DNA from: Salinicola socius
Lineage (GTDB): Bacteria; Pseudomonadota; Gammaproteobacteria; Pseudomonadales; Halomonadaceae
Direction of reading: 5' to 3'
Assembly (NCBI RefSeq): GCF_001937195.1
Contig: NZ_MSDO01000022.1
Location: 62,001-126,000, forward strand
DNA: 64,000 nucleotides
In this document: one piece after another, positions 6,025-46,851 of the stretch
Layout of the letters: the number at the start of each line of letters is the position of its first letter
Position numbering within the stretch: position 1 is the first letter of the stretch
Notes under the pieces: generated by a model
Databases searched by the model: none
Told to the model about the DNA's origin: nothing
Seen by the model: only the letters and a program-made list of their open reading frames with translations
Program-made: the position numbers and the translations under genes

Positions 6025-6051
6025 TCAAGAGTGTGATCCAGCGGCCGATAA
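6025..6051 (+). promoter_or_regulatory. Sigma-28 promoter for aer-cheR-cheB
   Basis: TCAAGAGT (6025-6032), an 11-nt spacer and a perfect GCCGATAA (6044-6051) lie about 80 nt upstream of the ATG at 6133. The position supports that ATG as start over the GTG at 6052, which would begin right at the -10 box. Confidence 0.85.
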
Positions 6052-15354: not shown

Positions 15355-15484
15355 GGCTGATAAACAGCCGAATTAGCCGCTGGAAAACCAGTAGTTTGTC
15401 GTCTTGGGTCGATGTCCGGGCGGCATAATGGAAAGATGAGTCATGCATCCCATGACCGTAAGCTGTTTCGCACGAGGCCATTCG

Positions 15485-16183
15485 ATGTATACCGCACAAG
15501 GCAAAATCGATCAGAGGGCATTGATTGAGCAGTACATGCCAATGGTGAGGCGCCATGCGCTCTCTCTTCAGGTGCGCCTACCCGCCAGCGTGGAACTCGA
15601 TGATCTCGTGCAGGCCGGCATGCTGGGGTTGCTGGACGCCATGGGGCGTTATGACAACTCGCACGGCGCCAGCTTTTCGACCTACGCCAACCAGCGAATT
15701 CGTGGCGCGATGATCGACGAACTGCGTAGTCGCGACTGGATGCCGCGCAGCGTGCGGCGCAATGCGCGGGCACTGGATCAGGCCGTGCGACGGCTGGAAC
15801 AGCAGCTGGGCCGGGCGCCGGACGAGCGCGAAATTGCCCAGGAAATGGGGGTTTCCCGGGAGGAGTACCATCAGCTCCTGGCAGATGCCAACAACGGCTT
15901 TCTGCTGGCGTACGACGAGAGCGATAGCGAAAACGGTGTCGCCGCCGTCTCCGAAGGCGGCCCGCCGTCGCCGTTGGAAGCGCTGCTCGATGCAGACAAT
16001 CGATCCAACGTGATGGCCGCGATCGATGCCTTGCCGGAACGCGAGAAGCTGCTTCTGGGACTCTACTATCAGGAAGAGCTCAACTTGAAAGAGATCGGTG
16101 CCGTACTGGGCGTCAGCGAATCCCGCGTCTGCCAGTTGCACAGCCAGGCCGTGTCGCGCCTGAGAAGCCGTCTGAATCCCTGA
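15485..16183 (+). CDS. fliA: Flagellar sigma factor FliA (sigma-28)
   Basis: A 232-residue sigma-70 family factor with regions 2 (LDDLVQAGMLGLLDAM, FSTYANQRIRGAMIDELR), 3 (RRNARALDQAVRRLEQQLGR) and 4 (LPEREKLLLGLYYQEELNLKEIGAVLGVSESRVCQLHSQA). It directs late flagellar transcription; at least five strong and two weaker matching promoters occur in this window. The ATG at 15485 has an upstream CACGAGG; an ATG at 15443 is in frame but would add 14 residues not seen in the family. It lies about 130 bp after flhE and has no FlgM or FleN next to it in this window. Confidence 0.95.
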   Translation: MYTAQGKIDQRALIEQYMPMVRRHALSLQVRLPASVELDDLVQAGMLGLLDAMGRYDNSHGASFSTYANQRIRGAMIDELRSRDWMPRSVRRNARALDQAVRRLEQQLGRAPDEREIAQEMGVSREEYHQLLADANNGFLLAYDESDSENGVAAVSEGGPPSPLEALLDADNRSNVMAAIDALPEREKLLLGLYYQEELNLKEIGAVLGVSESRVCQLHSQAVSRLRSRLNP

Positions 16184-35918: not shown

Positions 35919-36173
35919 ATGGATACGCTGAGCTATTCGGCCTTTCGCAGTCATCTGGCCAAGACGCTGGATAAAGTCAACGACGATCACGCGCCAATCC
36001 TGATTACTCGCCAGAATGGTAAGCCAGCCATCGTCATGTCGGTGGAAGACTTCAAGTCCTACGAGGAAACCGCCTATCTGATGGCTAGCCCCAAAAATGC
36101 CGAGCGGTTGAGCCAGGCCATCGCCGAAATTGAAAGCGGTGGAGCCAAGGAGCACGGGCTGATCGAAGAATGA
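35919..36173 (+). CDS. yefM: Antitoxin YefM
   Basis: An 84-residue Phd/YefM-family antitoxin. The N-terminal DNA-binding and dimerisation part has SYSAFRSHLAKTLDKVNDDHAPILITRQNGKPAIVMS. The C-terminal helical tail, which binds YoeB, ends in IEE. GAGAGGTAGGA precedes the ATG. The stop overlaps the yoeB start (ATGA). The complex should repress its own promoter at 35860-35895. Confidence 0.93.
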   Translation: MDTLSYSAFRSHLAKTLDKVNDDHAPILITRQNGKPAIVMSVEDFKSYEETAYLMASPKNAERLSQAIAEIESGGAKEHGLIEE

Positions 36174-36424
36174 TGCTCACGTGGGCCGAGAAAGCGTGGG
36201 AAGACTATCTCTATTGGCAGAGCACAGACAAAAAGACGCTGAAACGGGTCAATATGCTGATCAAGGACATTCAGCGGCAGCCGTTTACCGGCCTGGGCGA
36301 TCCCGAACCGTTGAGACATGGCTGGTCCGGTTATTGGTCGAGGCGTATCGATCGCGAGCATCGCCTGGTGTACAAGCCGACCGAGCAAGCGATCATTATC
36401 GTCCAGTGCCGGTACCACTATTGA
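36170..36424 (+). CDS. yoeB: mRNA interferase toxin YoeB
   Basis: An 84-residue RelE-superfamily toxin that cleaves mRNA on the ribosome. WAEKAWEDYLYWQ, TGLGDPEPLRHGWSGYWSRRID and EHRLVYK..IIIVQCRYHY match YoeB, including the catalytic Glu/Arg/His/Tyr region at the C-terminus. It is full length and probably functional. Start is ATG 36170 or the next codon, ATG 36173. Confidence 0.94.
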   Translation: MMLTWAEKAWEDYLYWQSTDKKTLKRVNMLIKDIQRQPFTGLGDPEPLRHGWSGYWSRRIDREHRLVYKPTEQAIIIVQCRYHY

Positions 36425-38006: not shown

Positions 38007-38378
38007 TCAGGCAGAGGCGTCGACCAATCGCCCCTGTGACTCTGCGAAAGCCTCCGCGATATGAAGCATCTCATCCGAAGGAATTTGGCGAATGATGTCT
38101 CCCGTGGCCCGATCGATAACCTGGGTGATGACTCGGCTATCAAATTCACTCAACTCGAAACGCAGACCGTATTGCGTCATGGCAGTGTTGAGTTCGTTGA
38201 CTCGATCGCTCAAGTACCCGATACCTTTAGCCGGGTCGTTTGGTATCGCGGAAGAAGATCCGTGCGTAATCGGCTGAACTAGACCCGCCTGGTCCAGCAA
38301 GGTTTCCAGTCGTTGGCGGGGAGAGCGATCGGCGTTCGAGTTTAGATAGAATGAAGCCAAATCGATTGGGGTGGGCAT
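38007..38378 (-). CDS. flaG: FlaG family flagellar protein
   Basis: A 123-residue FlaG-domain protein. The conserved second half reads LRFELSEFDSRVITQVIDRATGDIIRQIPSDEMLHIAEAF. FlaG proteins lie next to flagellin in many bacteria and affect filament length. The ATG 38378 is chosen because CGAGGAAG lies six bases upstream; the ATG two codons earlier is too close to it. It lies 55 bp downstream of the membrane-anchored bactofilin gene on the same strand and is probably transcribed with it from the sigma-28-like promoter at 39106. Flagellin itself lies about 6 kb away on the same strand. Confidence 0.85.
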   Translation of the reverse strand: MPTPIDLASFYLNSNADRSPRQRLETLLDQAGLVQPITHGSSSAIPNDPAKGIGYLSDRVNELNTAMTQYGLRFELSEFDSRVITQVIDRATGDIIRQIPSDEMLHIAEAFAESQGRLVDASA

Positions 38379-38433
38379 GAGCATCTTCCTCGCAGAATCG
38401 ACACTGAGATTAATCGTCTAAGTTCCGTGATCG

Positions 38434-39057
38434 CTACCGGAACTCGGGTTCAAGACATGATGAGGTGAGGGCGACGGGCACCGCACGGGATGCGCCCACC
38501 TTGTTTCCGCCGATGCTGAAACTTCCCAACAAACTTGCTCCGTCAAAGCAATGCAGGCTCGTTGTGGTCAAGTGACCCTCGAGGCATGCGCCCGCTTCGA
38601 TGACGACACGGTCCAACACATCCAGACGGCCCGAAAATGCGCCCGCGAGATGAAGTTCACGAGATTTGAGTCGTAGGGAAACCTTGGCGTCGAGACCGAT
38701 CAGAACGCGTTGCTGGTGGGCCAGGACGTCTCCTTCGACGTCACCTTCGATCCGAAGAGACTCCTGTGTTTCGAGGCGACCGTGGACGTTGACCGTTCGG
38801 CCGATCAGACTGCTCCCGGTCGATTCCGCTGCTCGTATAGACGTGTTCGATGGGGGCTCAGAGGTGACAGCCTCGAGTGATGACGCTTCGGCGGGAGACT
38901 CAATAGCGCCAGGTTTCGTCGCTCGGACGAACGACGGCCTGGGCCAGGCCGCCCGGCGATAGCCGTCCAGTAGTAGCAGGAAACAGCAGGCGAGACCGCC
39001 GAGCAGAAGCCACTCCCCCGAGTCCATATCTTCCCACTCCCAAACTGGTTCTGGCAC
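38434..39057 (-). CDS. Membrane-anchored bactofilin-domain protein
   Basis: A 207-residue protein with an N-terminal membrane helix (WLLLGGLACCFLLLLDGY, about 15-32), a variable linker (about 40-80) and a bactofilin-like beta-helix (about 82-185). The beta-helix begins SLIGRTVNVHGRLETQESLRIEGDVEGDV and keeps the periodic G-x-L/V pattern to about GASLLGSFSI. Bactofilins polymerise without nucleotide into cytoskeletal filaments. The upstream sigma-28-like promoter and downstream flaG tie it to the flagellum. It is divergent from a second, soluble bactofilin. The exact role is unknown. Confidence 0.78.
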   Translation of the reverse strand: MPEPVWEWEDMDSGEWLLLGGLACCFLLLLDGYRRAAWPRPSFVRATKPGAIESPAEASSLEAVTSEPPSNTSIRAAESTGSSLIGRTVNVHGRLETQESLRIEGDVEGDVLAHQQRVLIGLDAKVSLRLKSRELHLAGAFSGRLDVLDRVVIEAGACLEGHLTTTSLHCFDGASLLGSFSIGGNKVGASRAVPVALTSSCLEPEFR

Positions 39058-39105
39058 TCACGCCAGGGTTGCCGCACCGCGACGATCGGCGTCGATTATC
39101 GATAG

Positions 39106-39132
39106 CTATCGGCGTCGAAGAACAAAACTGAA
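39106..39132 (-). promoter_or_regulatory. Sigma-28-like promoter for membrane bactofilin-flaG
   Basis: On the minus strand TTCAGTTT (39132-39125), an 11-nt spacer and GCCGATAG (39113-39106) match the FliA consensus at 6/8 and 7/8 positions. The -10 is identical to that of the cheA promoter. It lies 49 bp before the start codon. Confidence 0.72.
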
Positions 39133-39163
39133 GATGCCGGTCGTCAGCAACGCTTCGGATGGG

Positions 39164-39190
39164 TAAAGATGTGTCGCCTTTCGCCGATCT
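39164..39190 (+). promoter_or_regulatory. Sigma-28-like promoter for soluble bactofilin
   Basis: TAAAGATG (39164-39171), an 11-nt spacer and GCCGATCT (39183-39190) match the FliA consensus at 6/8 and 6/8. It lies about 69 bp before the ATG at 39259 and diverges from the promoter at 39106-39132. Confidence 0.6.
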
Positions 39191-39258
39191 ACCATCACAC
39201 AGGTGGCGATCTCCCGAAGAGAATCTGTCACCACCCGATAGCGACAGAGAACCGTGTC

Positions 39259-39825
39259 ATGTTTCAGAAATCCAGTCACACCCCGCGGCAACCGACGCCT
39301 TCACCCGGCGCCACCGAAACCTCGACAGCGCCCGGCGAGAATAAAGTCTCCACCCATGGCCTTTCGAGAATTGGGGGCAAGACGACCCTACATGGCGATA
39401 TCAGTGGCGATGAGGACTTGCTCATCGACGGCCGCATCATGGGTAACGTTCTGTTTCGAAAGCACAGCGTCACCGTCGGCAATGACGGCATTGTGGAAGG
39501 GCGAATGGTGGCCAGGGAGCTAACGGTCAGAGGTCGGGTGGAAGGCACCTTGATCGCCGCCGAAAAGATCACGCTGAAAGCGGGGGCAGTGGTCAACGGC
39601 GAACTCCACGCGCCCGGCTTGGTACTGGAGGACGGTGCGGCCTTTCACGGCAATATCGATATGAAGCCGGAACAGGATGAGCTCAGGGAGGCGTTCGAGA
39701 CCGGAACGACGCACGCCGACTCCGCGGCTCCGGAGTCGGCTCACCCCGGCGCGGTGCCGTCACGGGTCGAAGAGGCCGATACCTTCCCGGCGGACGACCG
39801 GAGCACGCCCGTCTCGGGGAGTTAA
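39259..39825 (+). CDS. Bactofilin (soluble, cytoskeletal)
   Basis: A 188-residue bactofilin without a membrane segment. A Pro/Thr-rich N-terminal tail (1-38) precedes the DUF583 beta-helix (about 40-140): GLSRIGGKTTLHGDISGDEDLLIDGRIMGNV, VGNDGIVEGRMVARELTVRGRVEGTL and LKAGAVVNGELHAPGLVLEDGA. A disordered acidic C-terminal tail follows. It could co-polymerise with the membrane-anchored bactofilin encoded divergently. The ATG 39259 is chosen; the open frame extends upstream to 39169 but that would start at the -35 of the promoter. Confidence 0.88.
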   Translation: MFQKSSHTPRQPTPSPGATETSTAPGENKVSTHGLSRIGGKTTLHGDISGDEDLLIDGRIMGNVLFRKHSVTVGNDGIVEGRMVARELTVRGRVEGTLIAAEKITLKAGAVVNGELHAPGLVLEDGAAFHGNIDMKPEQDELREAFETGTTHADSAAPESAHPGAVPSRVEEADTFPADDRSTPVSGS

Positions 39826-40040: not shown

Positions 40041-43000
40041 CTACGATGCTCCATAAGCCACTTTGTTGTAATTATCCAAAATCCATGCCAAGTGTTTTCT
40101 CGGTAGCGAGTTAGGCTTGAGATCAAAGCGTGCCATCCTGCCCACGGTCTCTGTTGGCTCTGCCAATCTTTCGATCTCGTGGTAGTAGTGCCGATCTGTA
40201 TAGTCATCGAAAAGCACAATGGTTGGCTTCTCGATCATCAAGAAAGTCGTTATAAAGCACGCCCGCCGAAATCTGCCGTCAATCAGAACAACATCCGGGT
40301 GCACGAAGTCATCGTGATGCCATACGTGAGTGGGATCTCGATGGAAATTTCGCCATTTTGCATCATTTTTGGGTTTTGCCCAAAGACCAGTCTCGCCGAC
40401 ATCGACATGCATGATACTTGGACGCGACAAGAGATCGGCTGACTCGATATAGCGGTCCATGTTACGAGCCCAAGCGGCATCGTTCTCCACAGACGTGATG
40501 TGCTTGTTGAACATTTTAGCAGCGATGATCGTGGAGCCGCCGCTTCCATACTCAAGGATGACAGAGCTTTTCTGGTATATATCGGTAATGTAGTTTTCTA
40601 CTTCTGGAGGTAAGGTAACCTTTGGTTCTATCAGTTCTCTCTTGCTGTCGTTCTGATGTTTTGAAATATCGCTATCGATTTTCGGAGAAGTATGGGTGTC
40701 TTCGCCGTTTGATTTGCGATTAGCAGAGTCCCGACTGATGATTCCTTGGCTCTTGGCCTCCTGAAGAAGAGAAAAGTGTCGCGCGATCTGCGAATGTAAA
40801 ATATTCAATAATATCCATGAGTCCGCCTGCTTGCGGAGCTTTTCTCTAGCGTGATCCTGGCCACGAAGATATTCGTGAATCAACACCGGACCAGGGTCAT
40901 AAGCCTGTTTGCGGGCAGGATATCCTGCTTGAGTCAGTCTGTATGAGATGTCCACGCCGCCATGACCGAACAGTATATAGTCTCCCCATCCCCCCACTTC
41001 GAAGAATGCTTTTGCCAGGAATGAAGCATTCCCTTCCAGCTCCGGAGGAGCCGGAAATGGCTTGTCGGAAGGATAATAATGATTGGGGGCGGTCGAGTCT
41101 GATTGCTGACGATAAACGCCTCGCAAGGAGACGATATCCCATTCTTCATGGGCCCTCATGTGGCTGCCAATGAAACCCGGTTCAGGAATACCATCATCAT
41201 CGACAAATAGAAGTATGGGCGCATCGCTGTACAGTGCTCCAATGTTGCGCGCTAGATAAGCACCTGCGTTTCCAGAAGTTTTTAGCCAAGTATCGACCCA
41301 AGGCTCTATCGCTTCGAATTCCTCGTCTGGGCGACCATTATTGACAAAAATGATCTGTAAGCTATCGCCTCCATCTTTGCGAAGCCTTGAAATATTTTGT
41401 ACGACTTCCGGTTTGAACCGGTTCGCTATAACAATAGCCGCCATGTCAAAGCGTTCTCGATGGTTTCGGACACTTTCCTGAGACAACCAGTAGTCATAGA
41501 GCGAATGCTTGTGCGTCCAATTTGCCTTTGCAAGACGACTTTCCAGGGATGCTGCTCTTTCTCTGTCACCTGTACTGGTTTTTCTCGCTAACAGCGCATG
41601 GGTGAGAATAAAAAATGCAGCATTATTGCCCTTTTGCCATTCAAGAAGGCTTTTGCATTTTTCAATCAAGTTGTCGATAACACTTCCGTCGAGTTGGTTT
41701 AGGTTATTTGCCAAATCGACTACGAAAGAGCCCTTTTCTTGATTCAGAGGATCCTCTTCGCTTATTAACGAGAAGATATCGATGGGAGCGAGAGAAGCGC
41801 TTTCCTCGGCGTCGGTCAATGCCCCACGATCATCGTCTTCATCGATCTTGTCATTGAATGACGACAACGAGGCCTTGAAATCTTCAATTCCATAAAAACG
41901 ATAGGTAAGAAATGCCAGCTTCGTTTTTTGTGTCTCGTTTAAGGTGGATAGGCGAGAGTCGCTTGGAATCAGCAGTGCATCAGCACTGATTAACTGGGAC
42001 GCCCGAAAATCTTGGGTCGATGCTTTACCCTGCTCACTGACAGCGTATGAAGCTGAATAAAAACGGTAAAATTGAAATCCGTTTGCATTGGCCCATCGAG
42101 TCAGGTCACCTAGTTCTGTCTGCTTTTTATAAATTGGATTGAATCTTATCTGGACCTGCAGGACAAGTGCATCTGCTAGTGCCTGGGCGCCATGCTTAAG
42201 GATTTTTAGACTATCATGTCGATCATCTAGCGCCAGCAAATCAATACTTTCTAAGCCTTCGATGCTGTCCAAGGAGACGCTGGCAATATCGAATGCCTCA
42301 AGACTGACGGTATCAGTGCTTCTCAATGGCTCCAGGGTTGCCGGTTCTTCCCCCGCACCATCGAGTATCACGGGGGTGGGCTGTCCATCGCCTAGCGTGA
42401 CCTGAGGCAAGTGCTGGAGTTCACCGTACTGAGATAACTCACTCGCATTGTCAAGTCCACAGGCGGGATCAAACACCAGCAGTGCTACATGGCCAGTACC
42501 AAGCAATTCCTTGATGTCGTTGCGTTTTGCGATATTGCAGCCGTTATCCAAAATCGTGATCGCGCTATCCAGATCCCAATCGAACTCTTTGAGAAGCGAT
42601 GTGGGCAGCTTCAAAGGCTTGGATTCGTCTTCAAACCAGGCTTGGCCGCCTTTGTTGAAAGTCAGGGCTGCCGGTACCTTGTCCCCACAGTAGCGTTGCC
42701 AGATACCCCGCAAGGCTTTATGGAGGTGGCGACCAAATTTTGGTGCATCGCAGATGGGCGACTGCTCGAGATAAGTGCGGAGCGCAGCTCGAATCACTGC
42801 CAGACTCGGTAGGTCCGAAGCGAGATCGAGCACACGCTTGCGGTAGTCGTCCCAGTCGTCCGTCACCAATTCCGGCATGCCGGCGTTGCATAGATGGGTC
42901 GCGCTATGGCGACCGGCGAAAGTGGGGCCGGTGTGGGTGACCACGGGAACGCCCATCAGCAGGGCTTCGCATGTGGTCAGACCGCCGGAGTACGGCCAGG

Positions 43001-44546
43001 TGTCCAGCGCGATATCAACACGGTTGTAGCTCTTTAGTAGCTCCTGGTGCTGCGACGGGCCCTCCAGCAGGACTCTCGACCGCTCGACGCCGTGGTTTTC
43101 CAGCGTCGTGAGTACGCGCTCGCACACTTCGTCGCTGCTGTACTGACCGCCTTTCAGGAATAGGCGGCTACCCGGCAGCTGTTGCAGTAGAATTGCCCAC
43201 TCGGCTAGCAGAGTGTCGTTTACCTTGGCGGGGTTGTTGAAGCAGCCGAAGGTGATGTAGCCATTGGTGAGCGAGGGTAGTGCGGTTATGGCAGGCTTGT
43301 CGCTCGGTGGCTGATAGCAGATATAGTCATCCGGCAGGCGGATGAGCTTTTCGGTATAGAGGTGGTCGACGCCTGCCGGGGTTTCATGACTGTCACTCAG
43401 GAAGTAGTCAAATGCATCAATGCCCATGCTACTGATCTGCATGCCGACCCATTTGACAATGATGGGGGCCGGCTTCGTGTCGACGGTCGGCAATCGGTTG
43501 AGACCGCCATGTCCGGCGAGCTCGATCAAAATGTCGATATCGTCCTCGAAGATTCTCTCGGCGAGTTGGCGATGATTCAAGTGATAAACGGGCTTCCACT
43601 CGCAGGACTTCTTGATACGTTTGGCAATAGGATCATTGTCTCCGGTGTCGGTATCAGAGTAGGCATGGAGTTCAATATCGTCCGGTAGCTGCTCGAGGGC
43701 GCTACTGATCATCCAGCCGACCGGATGGGCACGTAGGTTTCCGGATAGCAGACCCACCCGTAATCGGCGATTGGGGGACGTGTTCTTCTCGCCATGATCA
43801 AAAGTCTGGGGCGGCTTGAAACGCGCACTCCACTTTTTCGACTTCTGAAGGATGCTCTCTGCCGAAGCTTCCGGATCATAGTGCTTGGTCAGGATCTCGT
43901 TGGAGTAGGCACCCGAATAGTCTGGTCTCAAGCGCAGGGCTTCTCGATAATGCCACTCGGCCTTTCTGAAATCCGCCATATCCTTGTGGTAGTTGCCGAG
44001 TGTGTTATGCACTGTAGGATCTTGAGGCCTCAATGCATAAAGACGATTCAGTGCCTCCAGCCCTTCCTTGAACTTGAAATGGAGCGAGAGGATCACACTG
44101 CGAATGGCCAGGACTTCTGCAGGAGAGTGGCCTAGCTCCTCGGCTCTCGACAGGAACTTTTCTGCCTCCGAATAGGATCCCATCTGATAGAGCATATGAC
44201 CCATGTTAAAATGGGCTTGGGCGTTGCCAGAGTCGAGTTCGATACTGCGGGCTTGCAATGCCTGGGCACGCTGCTTCTCTCCCGCCATGAAACAGGCTCG
44301 TGCCAGTGCCGTCAGCGTTAAAGGGTCGTCGGGATCGAGCGAATAAGCTCTCTCAAGTGTCTCTTTGGCCTCATCGGGGGCAATCTGTAGCTGACAGTTG
44401 CCCAGTGCTTTCCAGGCGAAAGCATCCTCAGGATAGTTCTGGACCAGTTTCTCGGCATCTGTCATGGCGAGTTTGTGCTTACCCTGCCGATAGAGGTCCA
44501 TGAACTGTTTCTGACGGGAGGCTGGGGTTTGAAGACTCTGGCTCAT
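40041..44546 (-). CDS. Giant TPR / SPINDLY-type GT41 / FkbM-like / GT2 / methyltransferase protein
   Basis: A 1501-residue cytosolic multidomain protein. Order: TPR repeats (about 10-235); a GT41 O-GlcNAc-transferase-type domain (about 255-620) with LIELAGHGGLNRLP, FGCFNNPAKVND and DTWPYSGGLTTCEALLMGVP; an FkbM-methyltransferase-like segment (about 660-890, AITILDNGCNIAKRND); a linker; a GT-A family 2 domain (about 1034-1290) with FVDDDGIPEPGF and FEVGGWGDYILFGHGG; a charged linker; and a C-terminal SAM-methyltransferase-like domain (about 1315-1500, ILEYGSGGST). It is encoded just downstream of flagellin on the same strand, so it most likely O-glycosylates flagellin and extends or methylates the glycan. 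The 3' half is clearly more AT-rich than its neighbours, which suggests acquisition or domain shuffling. The target and sugars are not shown by sequence. Confidence 0.82.
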   Translation of the reverse strand: MSQSLQTPASRQKQFMDLYRQGKHKLAMTDAEKLVQNYPEDAFAWKALGNCQLQIAPDEAKETLERAYSLDPDDPLTLTALARACFMAGEKQRAQALQARSIELDSGNAQAHFNMGHMLYQMGSYSEAEKFLSRAEELGHSPAEVLAIRSVILSLHFKFKEGLEALNRLYALRPQDPTVHNTLGNYHKDMADFRKAEWHYREALRLRPDYSGAYSNEILTKHYDPEASAESILQKSKKWSARFKPPQTFDHGEKNTSPNRRLRVGLLSGNLRAHPVGWMISSALEQLPDDIELHAYSDTDTGDNDPIAKRIKKSCEWKPVYHLNHRQLAERIFEDDIDILIELAGHGGLNRLPTVDTKPAPIIVKWVGMQISSMGIDAFDYFLSDSHETPAGVDHLYTEKLIRLPDDYICYQPPSDKPAITALPSLTNGYITFGCFNNPAKVNDTLLAEWAILLQQLPGSRLFLKGGQYSSDEVCERVLTTLENHGVERSRVLLEGPSQHQELLKSYNRVDIALDTWPYSGGLTTCEALLMGVPVVTHTGPTFAGRHSATHLCNAGMPELVTDDWDDYRKRVLDLASDLPSLAVIRAALRTYLEQSPICDAPKFGRHLHKALRGIWQRYCGDKVPAALTFNKGGQAWFEDESKPLKLPTSLLKEFDWDLDSAITILDNGCNIAKRNDIKELLGTGHVALLVFDPACGLDNASELSQYGELQHLPQVTLGDGQPTPVILDGAGEEPATLEPLRSTDTVSLEAFDIASVSLDSIEGLESIDLLALDDRHDSLKILKHGAQALADALVLQVQIRFNPIYKKQTELGDLTRWANANGFQFYRFYSASYAVSEQGKASTQDFRASQLISADALLIPSDSRLSTLNETQKTKLAFLTYRFYGIEDFKASLSSFNDKIDEDDDRGALTDAEESASLAPIDIFSLISEEDPLNQEKGSFVVDLANNLNQLDGSVIDNLIEKCKSLLEWQKGNNAAFFILTHALLARKTSTGDRERAASLESRLAKANWTHKHSLYDYWLSQESVRNHRERFDMAAIVIANRFKPEVVQNISRLRKDGGDSLQIIFVNNGRPDEEFEAIEPWVDTWLKTSGNAGAYLARNIGALYSDAPILLFVDDDGIPEPGFIGSHMRAHEEWDIVSLRGVYRQQSDSTAPNHYYPSDKPFPAPPELEGNASFLAKAFFEVGGWGDYILFGHGGVDISYRLTQAGYPARKQAYDPGPVLIHEYLRGQDHAREKLRKQADSWILLNILHSQIARHFSLLQEAKSQGIISRDSANRKSNGEDTHTSPKIDSDISKHQNDSKRELIEPKVTLPPEVENYITDIYQKSSVILEYGSGGSTIIAAKMFNKHITSVENDAAWARNMDRYIESADLLSRPSIMHVDVGETGLWAKPKNDAKWRNFHRDPTHVWHHDDFVHPDVVLIDGRFRRACFITTFLMIEKPTIVLFDDYTDRHYYHEIERLAEPTETVGRMARFDLKPNSLPRKHLAWILDNYNKVAYGAS

Positions 44547-44708: not shown

Positions 44709-45605
44709 TTATCCGAGCAGTGAGAGTACGCTCTGCGGGGACTGGTTGGCCTGGGCCAGGACCGAGGTACCGGCCTGCTGCAGGATGTTAGCTCGCGTCA
44801 TGTTGGAGACTTCGACCGCATAGTCGGCGTCTTCGATGCGCGAACGTGCGGCAGACAGGTTGGTTGACGTCGTGGTGATATTGTCGATGGCGGTCTCGAA
44901 ACGGTTCTGGACCGCACCGAGGTTACTACGCTCGTTGTCGACGTTGTTGAGCTTGTTGTCCAGAATGGACAGTGCACCGCTGGCGAGCACGTCGAAGCCG
45001 TTGGTGCTGACAGCGCGAGCCTCACCGTTGACAGATGCTGCGGCTGCAGTTGCGCCGCTGGTGTACATGTTCCAGCCGCTGGTGGCGGTGCTGGAGGTAC
45101 CAGAAGCGCTCGCGCCGCCGATGGTGATGCTGATGGTTTCGTTATCCTTCGCACCAACTTGAATGCTGAAGGAGGAACTGCTCGTGTTAGTCTTGAATAC
45201 GTTGGTTCCGTTGAACGAAGTCTGCTCGGTGACGCGGTTGATCTCTTCCAGACGCTGGTTGACTTCCTTCTGGATGGAGTCGATGTCCTGAGCGCTGTTG
45301 GTGCCGTTCTGGGCCTGGACGGTCAGTTCACGAATGCGCTGGAGGTTGTCGTTGATCTGATCCAGCGAGCCTTCAGCGGTCTGAGACAGAGAGATACCGT
45401 CGTTGGCGTTACGGCTGGCCTGAGTCAGACCTGTGACGGTAGAGGTCATGCGGTTGGCGATGGCCTGACCGGCCGCATCATCCGTGGCGCTATTGATGCG
45501 CAGGCCGGAAGACAGACGCTCCATAGCGGTTTGCAGATCACCCTGAGACTTGTTCAGGTTGTTCTGACCGATCAGGGAGGTGATGTTGGTATTGATAACT
45601 GCCAT
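44709..45605 (-). CDS. fliC: Flagellin
   Basis: A 298-residue filament subunit. The N-terminal D0/D1 helices (MAVINTNITSLIGQNNLNKS... to about 140, with LSSGLRINSATDDAAGQAIANR) and the C-terminal D1/D0 helices (from about 210, ending SVLSLLG) are canonical. The central variable part is short (about 140-210) and very rich in Ser, Thr, Ala and Gly, which offers many O-glycosylation sites. AAGGAAT precedes the ATG. A sigma-28 promoter lies about 130 bp upstream and a strong terminator follows. Confidence 0.96.
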   Translation of the reverse strand: MAVINTNITSLIGQNNLNKSQGDLQTAMERLSSGLRINSATDDAAGQAIANRMTSTVTGLTQASRNANDGISLSQTAEGSLDQINDNLQRIRELTVQAQNGTNSAQDIDSIQKEVNQRLEEINRVTEQTSFNGTNVFKTNTSSSSFSIQVGAKDNETISITIGGASASGTSSTATSGWNMYTSGATAAAASVNGEARAVSTNGFDVLASGALSILDNKLNNVDNERSNLGAVQNRFETAIDNITTTSTNLSAARSRIEDADYAVEVSNMTRANILQQAGTSVLAQANQSPQSVLSLLG

Positions 45606-46516: not shown

Positions 46517-46851
46517 TGGGTAGCCTTCGTCGAGAGGGCGGTGTGATGGTTGCCGCCATTCCCGCCACGCTCGGTCTTGTTCGATAGATCTGTCGAACTT
46601 GTAAAATGCTGGGGTTTATAAAGAGATCAATTTTATAAACAGTTGATATCTAGAAACCGCGCTATTTGCAGTGACCCCGATTTTTATCGGGTGTTTCTGA
46701 TAAAGGTTTACTATCGCAATGAGGGGACGGCGACTGATTTTCGCGATTATTGTCGGCTCCTCGTTATTCTGGTCGTTATCGTCAGCAAAGTGCCTGCCAT
46801 TCACGGCCGGCTCGACGGTCTTTCGTTCCAGCAAAAGCCAAGGATGTGCGC
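46517..46851. other. AT-rich intergenic region before manC
   Basis: No convincing gene. The region is AT-rich and contains a short hairpin (CCCGAT/ATCGGG, 46676-46691) followed by TGTTT. An open frame from 46719 begins like a signal peptide but then merges into the frame-shifted manC sequence, so it is not called. Confidence 0.4.

Follow-up and report, generated by a model that had tools for sequence, protein, structure and literature searches.

The two divergent bactofilin genes of Salinicola socius, bacA and bacB, carry promoters that appear to place a cytoskeletal polymer in the late flagellar class. With a probability of roughly 0.65, we read the pair as encoding a membrane-bound bactofilin copolymer that is made together with the late flagellar genes and serves the envelope of the swimming cell. 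Bactofilins have been tied to the motility of B. subtilis, with no agreed mechanism in the available part of that study (PMC9103452). The bactofilin family itself is known and the regulatory variant is new; a literature search, with most subscription journals outside its scope, found no paper putting a bactofilin under FliA, which is weak evidence of absence. A pair under switches of the flagellar type would suggest a link between swimming and the inner skeleton of the cell.

The divergent genes and their promoter boxes

The analysed stretch of DNA, 64,000 nucleotides long (the window), contains bacA at 38434..39027 on the minus strand (197 aa, N-terminal transmembrane helix) and bacB at 39259..39825 on the plus strand (188 aa, N-terminal MFQK peptide of the membrane-targeting type). 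An earlier note on this DNA had described divergent bactofilin genes, and both open reading frames indeed score above the curated cut-off of the Pfam Bactofilin family (PF04519; 61.2 and 78.4 bits against 27.9), with E-values of 1.2e-16 for bacA and 4.9e-22 for bacB. The probable start of bacA is the ATG at 39027, the longest frame beginning with GTG at 39057, and that of bacB is the ATG at 39259; a longer plus-strand frame has its start at 39169, within the -35 box described below. The transmembrane-anchored gene leads to flaG, as had also been proposed: a FlaG frame (38007..38384, minus strand, Pfam 4.7e-14) follows bacA on the same strand after 49 bp. Throughout the 4.17 Mb genome, bacA and bacB are the sole two bactofilin matches, and this flaG is the sole FlaG match.

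The surroundings are rich in flagellar and chemotaxis genes. The flagellin gene fliC (44709..45605, minus strand, Pfam Flagellin N and C) has a sigma-28-type promoter of its own at 45760-45734, and between bacB and fliC lies a gene for a 1501-aa protein with TPR, GT41 and GT2 Pfam domains (40041..44546, minus strand), which its position makes perhaps a candidate flagellin glycosyltransferase. S. corii, S. lusitanus and S. acroporae each encode a strong homologue of this protein at the equivalent position. The sigma-28 factor itself is encoded in the window by fliA (15443..16183, plus strand, 246 aa), which matches the FliA_WhiG model over its cut-off with 278 bits at window positions 15521-16174 (contig C83, 77521-78174). 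The left part of the window also holds cheA, cheW, two MCP genes, cheR, cheB, a cheY-like gene, cheZ, flhA and flhB. Two short overlapping frames at 35919-36424 resemble, by eye, a toxin-antitoxin pair of the YefM/YoeB type.

Between the two bactofilin genes, sigma-28-type boxes are found exactly where the earlier note had placed them. The bacA-flaG promoter reads TTCAGTTT-N11-GCCGATAG on the minus strand (39132-39106; -35 box at 39125..39132, -10 box at 39106..39113), and the bacB promoter reads TAAAGATG-N11-GCCGATCT on the plus strand (39164-39190; -35 box at 39164..39171, -10 box at 39183..39190). Scanning with a sigma-28 matrix, a hand-set enterobacterial consensus not learned from data, revealed seven sites of at least 16.0 bits (rounded) in the window, where order-3 random sequence would be expected to give 0.5. 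Six belong to bacA, bacB, fliC (45760), two MCP genes (4255 and 6025) and the cheY-like gene (10313). The -10 box of the site at 6025 lies directly against the first possible start of the frame, so this MCP gene must start further in. The seventh site, at 46710 on the minus strand (18.2 bits), is unexplained, with no evident flagellar gene downstream. The bacB -10 box GCCGATCT is without the usual A at position 7, as it is in the Salinicola and Onishia relatives, and hence the bacB promoter may be the weaker one. The minus-strand -10 box overlaps a perfect palindrome, CGATAGCTATCG (39100-39111), in this genome and its nearest relatives; the palindrome was not seen in the remaining Salinicola groups of the box alignment. 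Listing the regulon genome-wide with a loose pattern was abandoned as too unspecific (60 hits, 31 for the control).

Conservation of the boxes and of the flagellar linkage

A bactofilin match with an E-value up to 0.001 occurs in 101 of 201 Halomonadaceae genomes, and a divergent pair was read in at least 69 of the 201; pair counts are minima, as two further genomes (G091 and G106) have two bactofilin matches each whose positions were not shown. At all pair loci read the two genes are divergent, so that none has the co-directional operon of the BacEF type. Within the genus, nine of the ten pair-bearing Salinicola genomes were aligned; some have insertions longer than 100 bases, and two rows (G027 and G107) overrun into bacB. 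Of the 32 box positions 22 are invariant, whereas 8 of the 155 remaining intergenic positions between 39058 and 39244 are (Fisher p about 1e-14, with no correction for kinship). The tenth, S. tamaricis (G134), was left out of the alignment for its broken bacA. There, at L099 5045-5565 and at L039 6150-6670, bacA is split into two frames of 77 and 89 aa with bacB and flaG present, through either decay or sequencing error.

The earlier note had proposed looking for the arrangement and its promoters in related genomes, and across the family the promoters proved to be kept in a limited set of genera. Scoring covered 68 of the 69 pair genomes (G199 left out), with a null of 2000 sequences. Both boxes reached p<0.05 each in 9/10 Salinicola, 1/1 Onishia and 3/5 Kushneria genomes (13/16 in total) and in 0/52 pair-bearing genomes of other Halomonadaceae genera; with a smaller null the counts were 9/16 and 0/52. 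The one Salinicola miss is S. tamaricis, whose minus-strand boxes, at 19.4 bits in an earlier scan, lie outside the shortened region that was scored. In a control with 60 shuffled matrices, at most one of the 16 clade genomes scored. The boxes on the bacB side are weaker in Onishia and in four Kushneria genomes (10-12 bits, p 0.03-0.07 in the latter) and absent in the fifth Kushneria. Among the 52 other genomes one side alone fell below 0.05 in eight, where about five are expected, the strongest such match being the bacB side of G157 with 18.4 bits. Single-copy bactofilin loci of the order and family gave none at the 1% level among the 28 scored; 16 of the 44 such loci yielded no frame by the simple rule used, and at least one of the 28 (L260) looks to be in the wrong frame.

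In a tree of BacA plus BacB (FastTree, midpoint root, 64 of the 68 genomes, without G134, G104, G010 and G183), Salinicola, Onishia and Kushneria form a group with support 1.0, Onishia standing beside S. aestuarinus, and on these sequences the sigma-28-box trait is one that belongs to a single branch. A species tree from ligA was dropped before building, ligA being a poor marker: LigA of this genome is 88% identical to that of Chromohalobacter (G001) and 72-74% identical to those of four other Salinicola, which suggests exchange of the gene. FliA exceeded its model cut-off in all 18 genus genomes searched. Taken with the boxes, strongly conserved in Salinicola and present with a weaker bacB side in the Onishia and Kushneria genomes, this supports the placement of the pair in the late flagellar regulon that the earlier note had suggested, and control of bacA-flaG and bacB by sigma-28 (FliA) is, judging from the promoter motifs, highly probable. 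Most halomonad pairs are without these boxes and would thus work elsewhere without FliA.

The proposed linkage of the two bactofilin genes with flaG held inside the genus and failed outside it. Of nine further Salinicola loci, eight have flaG next to bacA, the exception being S. aestuarinus (G124), which has no FlaG match, yet has flagellin nearby; in other genera 17 loci, each spanning about 9-12.5 kb, yielded no flaG or fliC homologue. No flagellar family appeared among seven neighbouring ORFs at one Onishia and three Kushneria loci, and twenty neighbouring ORFs at ten non-Salinicola loci belonged to varied families, with four assigned to none and one MCP beside a Vreelandella pair. The flaG linkage therefore looks like a feature of Salinicola. 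As the boxes reach further than the linkage, it is unlikely that they hitchhiked with flagellar neighbours.

The pair was also compared with flagellation. Of the 177 genomes that match flagellin at least 68 have the pair, as does 1 of the 24 that do not; these counts are uncorrected for kinship, the flagellin model (PF00669) also matching FlgL and one of the 177 being a lone weak match (G039). Eight of the 18 genus genomes have FliA and flagellin with no pair among the matches listed, one of them (G077) having one weak bactofilin match. Phytohalomonas tamaricis (G009) has an intact divergent pair, yet no flagellin or FlaG match. These figures speak against a central part of the pair in flagellar construction.

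Fold and predicted membrane anchors of BacA and BacB

Models of both proteins have the beta-helix fold of bactofilins. In the AlphaFold2 model of BacA a helix at residues 3-27 precedes beta-helix strands at 72-177, and the model of BacB has beta strands at 35-134 with loose tails. Foldseek returned 6rib as the best hit for both models, with target TM-scores of 0.95 and 0.89 and modest E-values (1.6e-3 and 2.4e-3), and the sequence profiles of BacA and BacB match the solved bactofilins 6ria and 2n3d. The structure alignment used 30 of 56 BacA-like frames picked by pattern, L117 and L148 being mis-picks. Features predicted from sequence to associate with the membrane are present in both proteins: the transmembrane helix in BacA and the membrane-targeting-type peptide in BacB. 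By pattern, a DGxR-type end of the anchor occurs in 65 of 68 BacA proteins and a loose MFxK-type start in all 68 BacB proteins. The earlier note had called one protein anchored and the other soluble; the anchor helix of BacA agrees with this, and the MFQK start of BacB, like that of the membrane-targeting peptide of Caulobacter crescentus BacA, does not, so that BacB would be better termed peripheral.

The BacA anchor (residues 3-27, 38947..39021, minus strand) resembles that of ZipA. A 32-residue profile of 65 BacA anchors, run against 6295 ORFs of the fetched loci, found ZipA in 15 rows with E below 0.01 (best 3.6e-8); outside the bactofilins and ZipA, the strongest hit had an E-value of 0.014. 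The ungapped similarity spans roughly 31 residues, W6 and the closing DGxRR among them; the ZipA of this genome (contig C136:14345) begins MELREWLIILGLVLVATIVVDGFRRLQRQRR. The remainder of the two proteins differs, with a bactofilin domain in BacA in place of the domain by which ZipA binds FtsZ. The likeness may reflect shared origin or convergence.

CcmA of Proteus mirabilis has a swarming and shape phenotype. The available part of PMC12448750 treats it as a membrane bactofilin that occurs both as an integral membrane protein and in a shorter version beginning with MFSRKTE, and the earlier note, which knew of no characterised gammaproteobacterial example, has to be corrected on that account. 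CcmA thus has, in a gammaproteobacterium, the two forms that are predicted for the present pair; it differs in that one gene gives both forms via processing according to that source, whereas S. socius has two genes, one form each, with separate promoters. The same partial text puts bactofilins with a transmembrane helix at about 3.2% of those surveyed, mostly gammaproteobacterial. It also gives MFSKQAKS as the membrane-targeting peptide of C. crescentus BacA, which BacB resembles in fold and in its N-terminal MFxK, the BacB profile aligning with 2n3d from residue 1. The Caulobacter protein recruits PbpC for stalk formation, and sigma-28 control of it is not mentioned in the portions of PMC12448750 consulted.

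A possible role in the swimming cell

In the enterobacterial hierarchy FliA is as a rule active only after hook completion and FlgM export. We propose that a two-gene bactofilin module was taken into the FliA regulon, with FliA-type promoters directing transcription leftward into bacA-flaG and rightward into bacB, so that FliA would make both mRNAs once the hook is complete. BacA through its transmembrane helix and BacB through its N-terminal peptide would then copolymerise in a nucleotide-independent manner, giving an inner-membrane patch or filament; that the two share a membrane polymer is likely in view of the fold and motifs. The polymer would appear alongside the filament and chemotaxis proteins. 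Since FliA activity follows the hook, it would most likely serve the swimming cell's envelope or shape and not the building of the hook-basal body; it might position wall synthesis, motors or chemoreceptor arrays. Such a role, suggested by the timing, is put forward tentatively. Against the proposal stand the weaker bacB boxes, the one-sided matches among the 52 other genomes, the many halomonad pairs without boxes, the intact pair of Phytohalomonas and the eight genus genomes that have FliA and flagellin but no listed pair.

A polymer acting as anchor or assembly scaffold at the flagellar base, perhaps polar, as proposed for BacE and BacF of B. subtilis, is an alternative that we consider unlikely. 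In Salinicola the genes adjoin flaG, and in several species also the candidate flagellin glycosyltransferase gene and fliC, and the pair is commoner in genomes with flagellin; the B. subtilis proteins (yhbEF), likewise two bactofilins tied to flagellar motility (PMC4627819, PMC9103452, both seen in part), were reported to be needed for hook and filament structures (PMC4627819, available part). According to the accessible portion of PMC9103452, however, that motility defect is strain-dependent, and strain 3610 regained swarming on double deletion. The yhbEF genes form a putative operon with yhbD in the consulted part of PMC4627819, whereas bacA and bacB diverge, and no sigma-D promoter is mentioned in the available parts of either article. 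The hook requirement reported there is made less likely here by late expression, which follows the hook in the standard hierarchy. Moreover, most flagellated relatives were not seen to have the pair, and outside Salinicola no flagellar structural gene was found beside it in the loci examined; the Vreelandella pair has an MCP as neighbour. The genome encodes both FlhD and FlhF, so polar placement is not implied. The earlier idea of a polar scaffold or anchor for the flagellum thus went unsupported, class 3 timing fitting a hook part poorly.

The ZipA-like anchor raises another reading, in which BacA gathers at the division site or new pole and the late regulon feeds a septal scaffold coupling motility with division or elongation. 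The profile hits to ZipA, with the first unrelated hit at 0.014, speak for it; short hydrophobic segments can converge, though, the searched ORFs are a sample of fetched loci and no proteome, a ZipA start of such form was visible in 14 of 30 ligA loci, and the ZipA-like anchor also occurs in genera without sigma-28 boxes. We regard this reading as rather improbable. Most improbable is that the two are ordinary shape bactofilins standing beside fliC by chance, with boxes that are fortuitous or drifted in from flagellar DNA. Most pairs of the family are indeed without such boxes, as are the single-copy loci scored, but the boxes alone are strongly conserved, and they persist in Onishia and Kushneria, whose examined loci showed no flagellar neighbour.

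The reading we prefer, a membrane copolymer made with the late flagellar genes for the swimming-cell envelope, offers two subunits, each with an anchor of its own, that can be studied separately, and the sister genera of this clade, in which the same pair stands without the promoters, provide a natural comparison for the role of bactofilins in a swimming cell. A more far-reaching version, in which the late flagellar sigma factor builds a two-anchor bactofilin skeleton that signals completion of the flagellum to the division or wall-growth machinery, is a long shot. If true, one halomonad clade would have a cytoskeleton that is timed by a checkpoint and connects motility with cell form, one of its subunits carrying a ZipA-type anchor.

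The regulators do not separate polar from peritrichous flagella here, as FlhD and a long FlhF are both present. This FlhF lies in a 770-aa frame (contig C82:21661); lengths of about 720-870 aa are common in the family, and the listed genera g3 and g4 have frames of 424-449 aa.
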